Below are positions 33,998 to 53,326 of a stretch of 64,000 nucleotides of DNA, piece by piece. The position numbers and the translations under genes were made by a program. The stretch is taken from contig NZ_APNK01000002.1 of the NCBI RefSeq assembly GCF_000732535.1, positions 1 to 64,000 on the forward strand. The letters are read 5' to 3'. Positions within the stretch are counted from its first letter, which is position 1. Each line of letters begins with the position of its first letter. The notes beneath the pieces are model-generated. The model was not told where the DNA came from and made no database searches. It saw only the letters and a list, made by a program, of their open reading frames with translations. Origin of the DNA: Salinisphaera hydrothermalis C41B8. GTDB lineage: Bacteria > Pseudomonadota > Gammaproteobacteria > Nevskiales > Salinisphaeraceae.

Positions 33998-34269
33998 TTG
34001 TGACCTCTAGGGTGGGGATCGTCACAAACTAAGCGCATCGGTGACTTGGCGCGCCCCGGCCCGCGAGTGAGGTATGACTTCGGATGGTGGCGTCCGGCGA
34101 GGCCAGAGGCGTTCGGGTTACGCCGTCGTACCGCTTGATGTGGCATCGCGCGCCTCGGTCGTGGCCTGCGCCTTGGCTCAAGCGACGAGATCAGCTTACG
34201 CGGTGCGTATCTCGCCACGACCGCCACAGCCGCTTGAATCACATTCCGTCGTGAGTCGGGTGCTGGTGG

Positions 34270-34543
34270 CTAGGGCGTGTTGAGGTTTCGTGCGAGCGCC
34301 GCGTTGGCGTCCGCAAATCGTGACCGGCAAGGCGCGAGTCGCCGCGTCGTGGCGAGCCACGACCCAGACTCGCAACGCCGCAGGGCGCGATTTGCGGCCC
34401 AACCCGAAGGGACAAGCGCTGTTTTGCGGCAATCCAGCGTTGTTGCTCTCTCGCGTAGAACGACTACGCCACGTTCGCTACGCCTCGTCTTGCCGCAAAA
34501 CAGCGCTTGGCGCGGACTCGCACCAAACCTCAACACGCCCTAG
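34270..34543. mobile_element. MITE-like palindromic element, full copy 1 (274 bp)
   Basis: The ends are a 27-bp inverted repeat with one mismatch: CTAGGGCGTGTTGAGGTTT + CGTGCGAG at 34270-34296 and its complement at 34517-34543. CTAG at both edges resembles the YTAR target duplication of IS5-type transposition. Inside, a perfect 20-bp inverted repeat CAAGCGCTGTTTTGCGGCAA (34413-34432 with 34490-34509) brackets a 57-base loop. No protein is encoded. Related copies are at 47691-47828 (deleted) and 52960-53226 (inverted). Confidence 0.85.
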
Positions 34544-35199
34544 AATGCCAGCAACACGCCCATGCCAACGGCCACATTGTTCCGGAGCGTGCTGTTTTCG
34601 GCTCTCAGATCATTCTTCTTGATGGCCAGGCCGCCTTGAAGCCCGACTTTTTCGTTCAGCCAATTCTGCGCCATGAATCCGCGCAATCCACTGCCCTGGT
34701 TGAACAGGCGTGAATCCTTCTCCAGCGCATCATCGTCGTCGAGGTGAGGATTCAAATTGAGCGCGAGTGGATCGATGACGGCCCGTGGTGTACTGGCCGT
34801 CCGGGCCTTGGGGAGTGGCTGTCTGCCAGTGCCGGTTAGCAGAGTCTCGTGGGCCGACGTCGTCGGGGGAAGTTCCAGATTCAGCGGCGGCGGCACGCTG
34901 ACCCTTGTAATCACGATCGGGCTGGAATGCTGACGCTTCGGGCGTTGCGCCAAAGCATGCATCGGCGACCACTGAAGTTTCAGATGATGTTTCGACGGAA
35001 GCAGCCGGAGTCGCGACGATATCGATGCGACATGAAAGTGATGCGTCCGCGGTTGGGTCGTAGCGGATGCATTCTGCGTGGCGGGCTTGTTGCCGATCGA
35101 AGTCTGGGCCGCCGGCCAAAACAAGTACGCGCTGGCGCCAAGTGTGGCACTGGCCAGTATCGCAACAGCCAAATATCCAGATGTTATGCGCGAGACCAT
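34540..35199 (-). CDS. hypothetical membrane-anchored protein, third gene of the pilin cluster
   Basis: 219 residues with one N-terminal membrane anchor (YLAVAILASATLGASAYLFW, residues ~9-28), a Pro/Ser/Thr/His-rich middle (to ~165) and a C-terminal piece that could be beta-strand, ending VAVGMGVLLAF with a terminal Phe as in outer-membrane beta-signals. I recognise no family. It follows the PglL-like ligase on the same strand, 187 bases apart. Its TAG stop is supplied by the CTAG terminus of the MITE, so the original C-terminus may have been longer. Codon usage is typical of the window. Confidence 0.55.
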   Translation of the reverse strand: MVSRITSGYLAVAILASATLGASAYLFWPAAQTSIGNKPATQNASATTQPRTHHFHVASISSRLRLLPSKHHLKLQWSPMHALAQRPKRQHSSPIVITRVSVPPPLNLELPPTTSAHETLLTGTGRQPLPKARTASTPRAVIDPLALNLNPHLDDDDALEKDSRLFNQGSGLRGFMAQNWLNEKVGLQGGLAIKKNDLRAENSTLRNNVAVGMGVLLAF

Positions 35200-52959: not shown

Positions 52960-53226
52960 CTAGGGCCTTGTGCCGTTTCGTGCGAGTCCGCGCCAAGCGC
53001 TGTTTTACTGCAAGAGGAGGCGCGACGAGTGCGGCGCCGTGAGTCTAAGCGAGCGAGCTGCAACGCTCGATTGCAGTAAAACAGCGCTTGCCCCTTCGGG
53101 TTGGGCTCCAATCACGCCCTGCGGCGTTGCAAATCTTGATCGTGGCACGCCACGATCGGCGGCTCGCGCCTTGCCGGATGCGATTTGCGGTCTCCAACGC
53201 GGCGCTCGCACGAAACGGCAACAGGC
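52960..53226. mobile_element. MITE-like palindromic element, full copy 2 (inverted)
   Basis: Reverse orientation relative to copy 1. CTAGGGCCTTGTGCCGTTTC at 52960 and TTGCCGTTTCGTGCGAG (minus strand from 53222) form the terminal repeats. The internal 20-bp perfect stem is CAAGCGCTGTTTTACTGCAA (52994-53013) with its complement at 53071-53090, again enclosing exactly 57 bases. Two base pairs of the stem differ from copy 1 and both are compensated. Lies between crbS and serS. Confidence 0.85.
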
Positions 53227-53326
53227 GCCGGGGCGAATGACTGCCCACGGGCGCGGATTGTGACGGCGAGCGCCGCGGCCGATTGTGGCAGAATGCGCGT
53301 CGGCCATTGGCATCCCACTCGATTAG

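Follow-up and report, generated by a model that had tools for sequence, protein, structure and literature searches.

The 64,000-nucleotide window analyzed here (the whole stretch from position 1 to 64,000 of contig NZ_APNK01000002.1 of Salinisphaera hydrothermalis C41B8) contains two copies of a palindromic sequence of some 270 bp, which raises the question of what kind of element this is and why its arms stay complementary. A first-pass annotation had described both copies as mobile and non-coding, with shared terminal repeats and a perfect internal stem, and had attributed the matched differences between the stems either to selection acting on a folded RNA or a cruciform or to template switching. 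Inspecting the two copies (Table 1) confirmed that each carries a 20-bp internal stem closing a 57-nt loop (no mismatches and a loop at 34433-34489 in copy 1), and that two pairs distinguish the stems (TTTTGCGGCAA / TTTTACTGCAA), each change being compensated in the opposite arm. The shared terminal repeats proved wrong: the repeat is of the GTTGAGG type in copy 1 and of the GTTGCCG type in copy 2, which has also lost the CCCTAG end on one side. In agreement with the non-coding assignment, Pfam gave no match at E 0.01 for the three open reading frames overlapping copy 1 (88, 110, and 88 amino acids). The fold of copy 1 reaches -168.3 kcal/mol (z = -11.9), and none of 200 shuffled sequences folded as well; with its recurrence across the genome, this places the palindrome beyond chance. 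As to the cause of the matched differences, the two copies do not decide between the proposed ones. The stem variant of copy 2 is unique, occurring in one of 158 distinct copies, so that the pair alone proves little; many copies, considered below, show signs of both.

Table 1. Features of the two element copies in the window
Feature	Position	Strand	Basis
Element copy 1, 274 bp with the CTA/TAG target bases	34270..34543	+	sequence, fold
Copy 1 terminal stem, left arm	34272..34296	+	
Copy 1 unit 1, stem-loop	34299..34402	sense strand +	with central hairpin matches covariance model R1
Copy 1 small central hairpin, CCC-GAA-GGG	34403..34411	.	
Copy 1 unit 2, inverted relative of unit 1, contains the 20-bp stem	34412..34515	sense strand -	
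Copy 1 internal 20-bp stem, left arm	34413..34432	.	
Copy 1 internal 20-bp stem, right arm	34490..34509	.	
Copy 1 terminal stem, right arm	34517..34541	-	
Element copy 2, ends of the GTTGCCG type, one of them decayed	52960..53233	- (inverted relative to copy 1)	
Copy 2 internal stem arm with two compensated differences	52994..53013	.	
Copy 2 internal stem, opposite arm	53071..53090	.	
Copy 2 central hairpin and unit 1	53092..53204	sense strand -	alignment

Searches combined with local alignment located the element at 77 places in its own 4.28-Mb genome, at least 63 of them full-length, with copy lengths clustering near 274, 288, 300, and 315 bp. Among 63 full-length copies, 50 start with (C/T)TAGG, 47 end with CCTA(G/A), and 38 do both. 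The element was also found in all 13 other genomes of the genus that were searched, and at E ≤ 1e-10 a search of 61 related genomes matched it in 22, among them every one of the 14 in the genus. Its pattern matches 54 named contig stretches, 48 in Salinisphaera records and six in a record labeled Endozoicomonas sp. G2_2 (NZ_JAGHQU01; L237, L243, L255, L256, L259, and L265), which is probably misnamed. Weak matches of 70-72% to the first 142-144 bases occur on plasmids of Azotobacter chroococcum (L292) and Halomonas sp. PA16-9 (L293). The own genome also holds a second subfamily with quite different stems and ends GGGCGTGTCGTCATGAG (L078, 1313-1584), as well as two copies that look like hybrids of both subfamilies (L076, 326-599; L109, 430-630). 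A 48-bp solo element on contig 8 consists of nothing but the two terminal repeats (GGGCCTGTTGCCGTTT...AAACGGCAACAGGCCC; L087 1218-1265, G000 C8, ~59.8 kb). Contigs 29, 37, and 46 break inside or close to element copies, which also lie near the ends of contigs 41 and 68. A contig from the IMG/VR viral collection (L266, last 150 bases) stops inside a copy.

The first-pass annotation had suggested looking for an IS5-type element with matching ends as the mobilizing partner, and a candidate was found in the same genome: an 866-bp insertion sequence (IS) on contig 8 (C8:121200-122065) with a single 267-amino-acid transposase. This protein falls in the NCBIfam family transpos_IS5_3 (NF033580; 257.7 bits against a cut-off of 110) and scores above the cut-offs of PF13340 and PF01609, which identifies it as an IS5-type DDE transposase. 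Both ends of the IS read GGGCGTGTTGAGGTTTC after CTA, exactly as do the first 17 bp after CTA in copy 1 (34273-34289); past these 17 bp, the IS and the element diverge. Two further long copies of the IS, on contigs 57 and 9, each contain one in-frame TGA over the family match. Together, the many dispersed copies and the IS with matching ends support the claim of mobility. We class this Salinisphaera element as an IS5-type MITE: it is shorter than 500 bp (274 bp here), has no transposase gene, and shares its terminal repeats with an IS. The transposase of the 866-bp IS is its predicted partner, which, judging from the common ends, would move it.

Other end types have possible counterparts as well. 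An IS in genome G006 has the GTTGCCG-type sequence GGGCGTGTTGCCGTTTC at both ends, resembling another end type of the MITE, and the ends of an IS in G001, GGGCCTGTTGATG / GGCCCTGTTGAGG (GTTGATG/GTTGAGG), resemble still others. Further away in the class, genome G181 holds an IS5-family element with ends TAGGGCGTGTTAACACTAAT (GTTAACACTAA), again resembling a terminal-repeat type. Transposases of the partner subfamily were detected at E ≤ 1e-30 in only 5 of the 14 genomes of the genus. Since just five of the ten class genomes searched match the transposase family at E ≤ 1e-20, three of them over the cut-off, no partner with matching ends was shown in these ten genomes for most end types.

The element prefers intergenic sites: an open 450-bp frame runs across 30 of 113 insertions, compared with 4310 of 6037 control positions. 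TA adjoins the element end at 194 of 238 sides, and a TA before the element's first G creates the stop codon TAG. Among the 179 sides reading CTAG or TTAG, 59 have at least 90 open codons ending exactly there, compared with 33 and 21 in the other two frames, an excess that is at most suggestive. One open reading frame (34540-35199, minus strand) stops on the TAG at the edge of copy 1; insertion at such a position could leave a stop codon in place. The orientation of flanking genes showed no significant preference across 181 sides (70 toward the element, 59 away, 39 ambiguous, and 13 with none; P 0.38), and a role in 3'-UTRs, which we had considered, is unsupported by these orientations. At the site of copy 2, the orthologous spacer of genome G007 measures ~210 bp rather than ~480 bp and contains 35 bp of a decayed element end (E 6e-6); copy 2 may thus have been inserted before the two species diverged.

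We collected 158 distinct full copies, four of them from outside the genus; these four were left out of the mismatch, change-type, clustering, private-change, and unit-sense counts. Within 36 copies of 273-274 nt from the own genome, the 720 cells of the internal stem include three compensated ones, in two copies, and 11 uncompensated ones, four of them G·U. Across the genus, all helices show compensated changes. In 66 copies, these amount to 25 cells at four pairs of the 20-bp stem, 89 cells at nine pairs of hairpin 1, and 124 cells at 14 pairs of the terminal stem. The covariation scores of the three helices (0.087, 0.146, and 0.234, respectively, against 0.036, 0.086, and 0.098 after shuffling, a procedure that does not control for relatedness) were reached by none of 500 shuffles, whereas the number of two-sided pairs was reached by 27, 32, and 0 of them; structures slid along the alignment scored at most 0.019, 0.033, and 0.066. 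Uncompensated stems, which the annotation had held would speak against its reading, do occur to some extent: 22 of 126 classified copies pair a normal arm with a replaced arm in the internal stem, and some of these types have multiplied, which argues against a strict need for perfect stems. More broadly, seven combinations of modules are seen at three sites (SSS 78, MSS 12, SMS 9, MMS 9, SMM 8, MMM 6, and SSM 4; 32 of the 158 copies were not fully classified). Within the genus, the loops show no special conservation, because unpaired positions are the more variable on average (mean entropy 0.61, against 0.42 for paired ones).

What the first reading of the locus had missed is the inverted relationship between the two internal hairpins, along with the extension of the family across the class. 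The assignment of unit 2 in copy 1 draws on the inverted self-similarity of the element in its own genome and on the second-unit matches described below. Eight distant relatives of ~270 bp have largely different stem letters (L137 from G006 in the genus, L142 from G015 in the family, and six from the order, together L137-L144). The three that were folded, L138, L139, and L142 (z of -15.1, -12.1, and -11.8), share the Salinisphaera layout of a terminal stem, hairpin 1, a CCC-NNN-GGG hairpin, and hairpin 2. A covariance model of hairpin 1 and the small hairpin, R1 (113 positions, 30 sequences), matches copy 1, itself one of these sources, at 34299-34412 on the plus strand with 124.1 bits. At E ≤ 1e-6, on rough E-values and with up to 13 candidates scored per genome, R1 matched 62 of 274 sampled class genomes, among them the own genome and one relative from the genus, G003 (positive sample: 51 of 221 genera; 48 families).

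We then examined one to three loci from each of 32 R1-positive genomes, G003 among them, together with L137-L144. These 56 loci from 40 genomes yielded 105 unit matches, and 48 of the 56, a search for which copy 1 was not a source, hold a second unit on the opposite strand ~100 nt away. The body of the element thus consists of a ~113-nt stem-loop unit present twice in inverted orientation, with both units reading inward. Both partners vary in 36 of 37 pairs across these 105 units, and 89.7% of cells are paired; covariation reaches 0.724, compared with 0.173 for shuffled and at most 0.128 for slid controls. The class alignment was fitted to R1 and so leans toward the structure, and the loci were chosen by a covariance model that favors G·U, but the slid controls and the finding of second units argue that model fitting is not the cause of the covariation. 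Conservation of letters is highest for CAAGGC on one arm (92-99%) and for AACGC..G on the opposite arm (90-99%), and four letters of this CAAGGC / AACGCCG motif stand at 99%. The terminal repeats, on the other hand, vary widely between lineages (GGGCCTGTTAACA, AGAGCCTATCC, GTACTCCGTCC, AGTGTACTGCTTCA, TAGTGTCCCTT, TTAGAACTC, and others). Ends were called for at least 38 elements of 197-287 bp, 33 of 38 within 264-275 bp and 36 of 38 within 264-287 bp; two loci had no profile match, the calls are weak or uncertain for L310, L311, and L316, and loci 336-343 were left out of this survey. In the loci examined, the architecture is thus conserved class-wide though nearly every pair has changed. As the hairpin shape is kept while most letters differ, the folded shape itself seems to matter.

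These findings bear on the reading of the element as a MITE of the usual sort, whose terminal repeats alone matter and whose body is a passenger homogenized by recombination among copies. MITE bodies are commonly taken as free to decay, and both the seven module combinations and the existence of a solo element made of two terminal repeats would fit such a passenger. An unconstrained body would not keep its architecture across class genomes, however, and the class-wide covariation, with all but one pair changing on both sides, speaks so strongly against this reading that we consider it very improbable.

A more serious question is whether the pairing reflects selection or the copying of one arm onto the other. 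For the change and G·T counts within the genus, we used copies of 270-277 nt. Pairs with less than 40% of their commonest Watson-Crick state were excluded from the transition-to-transversion count, the one-strand G·U count, and one clustering table; target-base pairs 1-2 from these counts, the clustering, and the private-change counts; and pairs 165, 175, and 183 from the private-change, unit-sense, and five-pair-removal counts. Compensated changes comprise 94 transitions and 89 transversions, compared with 222 and 152 among single changes, whereas a simple two-hit model, derived by hand and then tested, expects a transition fraction of ~0.81 among compensated changes; such richness in transversions is not what a path through G·U predicts. 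The central 3-nt loop reads GAA in 29 and its reverse complement, TTC, in 51 of 97 Salinisphaera copies. In other species (G001 covered in part, G002 and G008 absent), the corresponding numbers are 43 and 82 among 150 of the 229 places. In 32 near-identical copies, 6 paired changes are private, each of them lying in the terminal stem, beside 40 private single ones, where 0.04 paired changes are expected. Clustering of nearby compensated changes was also considered as a discriminator and rejected, because single changes cluster too.

Both outcomes have been described: template switching homogenizes the arms of inverted repeats and inverts their spacers, according to passages of PMC8604942, and creates and maintains hairpins, according to passages of PMC8794818. 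The latter also state that compensatory changes with loop inversion are extremely rare in RNA-gene data, yet report 69 loop inversions. Arm-to-arm copying thus probably contributes to the paired changes. In its strongest form, this account would dispense with selection on the fold altogether, with template switching (quasi-palindrome correction) and gene conversion between copies maintaining the perfect palindromes. The transversion-rich compensated changes, the 80 of 97 copies (125 among 150 of the 229 places elsewhere) with a central loop of GAA or its exact inverse, and the private paired changes would all fit it. It fails to predict, however, that length stays near-constant and the motif conserved across the class amid stem turnover, or that the pairs are strand-asymmetric in the way described next, and as a full explanation we regard it as unlikely.

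The asymmetry concerns mismatches. A pair maintained by selection on one strand can afford G·T more readily than A·C on that strand, while binding of double-stranded DNA and arm copying are indifferent to the two. Reading the whole element on one strand revealed no G·U excess over loops (134:96 in stems against 67:46 in loops), but concluding from this that there is no strand-specific selection would be misleading, because the two hairpins are inverted relatives. An early count on the RNAalifold structure (GU 293, AC 59) was set aside because RNAalifold penalizes A·C. When each unit was read in its own sense, leaving out the whole terminal stem and three central pairs (and, in the per-helix table, five poorly paired columns of helices 3-4), the ratio of G·T to A·C was 108:57 in stems (sign-flip P 0.007) and 56:80 in loops (Fisher 3e-5), counted as species-events that are only partly independent. 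Five pairs carry much of the excess in Salinisphaera, the stem ratio falling to 69:54 once they are removed, and in the class helix most of the G·T excess lies within four adjacent pairs.

We repeated the count on folds that allow Watson-Crick pairs only, applied to both strands, a procedure in which the counting is free of alignment and model while the choice of loci is still model-based. The 56 class loci gave 31:11 for the best units and 29:12 for the second units (together 60:23), the second set including one antisense match at the same place. Among the 97 Salinisphaera copies (268-277 nt), unit 1 gave 35:6 and unit 2 gave 31:19 in its own sense (19:31 on the plus strand), together 66:25 in own sense, compared with 27:25 in the terminal stem. 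When 274-nt copies were counted once per species and place, the ratios fell to 12:3 for unit 1, only 12:8 in its own sense for unit 2, and 15:12 for the terminal stem. The symmetric terminal stem behaves as expected for double-stranded DNA bound by a transposase, and the G·T excess in unit sense beside it points to a selected single-stranded fold, of either RNA or single-stranded DNA. Overall, these counts support selection on each unit to fold as a single strand in the inward sense.

The units could act as single-stranded DNA, a nuclease or transposase recognizing the folded unit during replication or conjugation. RAYT proteins are reported to recognize REP doublets (REPINs) as folded single-stranded DNA, and the inverted hairpin doublet and the conserved CAAGGC / AACGCCG motif on opposite arms would suit such recognition. 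G·T is better tolerated than A·C in DNA hairpins too, so the asymmetry is compatible with either nucleic acid. Against this, the IS5-type ends and the matching IS5 transposase already account for movement, and REPs are about three times shorter than the ~113-nt units. REPINs themselves are inverted doublets predicted to form hairpins in single-stranded DNA or mRNA, according to passages of PMC3116915. All considered, action as single-stranded DNA seems possible, if on the doubtful side.

The reading we favor, and hold to be probable, is that of an IS5-type MITE with an inverted doublet body whose units are selected to fold single-stranded, most likely as RNA. The element is non-autonomous and would be mobilized by the IS5-family transposase discussed above. 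A transcript entering from either flank would meet the first unit in sense orientation and fold that unit, and the element could in this way insulate, stop, or process transcripts from both flanks, a role that we would weigh about evenly against one in single-stranded DNA. Copying of one stem arm onto the other at replication would supply part of the paired changes, which the data support without proving it.

More tentatively, and with somewhat less than even confidence, the conservation of the body rather than the ends may mean that the family is a class-wide, mobile, structured non-coding doublet that swaps its terminal repeats, and with them its borrowed transposase, while keeping a long-lived fold. 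It would then be a selfish nucleic acid with a function of its own, exerted single-stranded and inward from both ends. A non-coding MITE body that keeps its architecture in 62 of 274 sampled class genomes, despite great stem turnover in the loci examined, opens to testing the idea that mobile elements can harbor a structured RNA or single-stranded DNA under selection. It also provides a large natural collection of sequences in which the effects of selection on folding can be told apart from those of template switching, because the element's own terminal stem serves as an internal control.

How does the element compare with known systems? Searching positions 34000-34800 against Rfam 15 found no family at its gathering score, the best hit having E 0.22 and lying below that score, and 13 loci from the class and from the order and family matched only tRNAs. 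Papers matching six of the element's end sequences concern other subjects, judging by their titles and abstracts. Among the matches listed in the literature on bacterial MITEs, the family was not recognized; the subscription literature lies mostly outside that set, and a description elsewhere is possible. Bacterial MITEs derived from the IS5 family resemble the element in their short non-coding form, terminal repeats shared with IS5, TA-centered target, intergenic preference, and fold-back structure. In contrast to them, the body in Salinisphaera is a conserved, covarying inverted doublet present in many class genomes. Sequence common to the element and its IS amounts to only ~17 bp per end, which corresponds to a type II MITE in the terms used in passages of PMC10969869.

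REPINs, the REP doublets, are alike in forming an inverted hairpin doublet, in their high copy number, and in their mostly extragenic location. Indeed, an inverted doublet of palindromic units, on opposite strands and ~100 nt apart, is what 48 of the 56 loci hold. REPINs are associated with RAYT, whereas the Salinisphaera element has ~113-nt units and IS5-type ends. The ERIC / RU-1, Correia (CREE), and Yersinia palindromic elements differ in sequence, ends, and size. They are alike in being small mobile sequences, some of them RNA-structured, that lie in intergenic and some intragenic positions, according to passages of PMC2229807.
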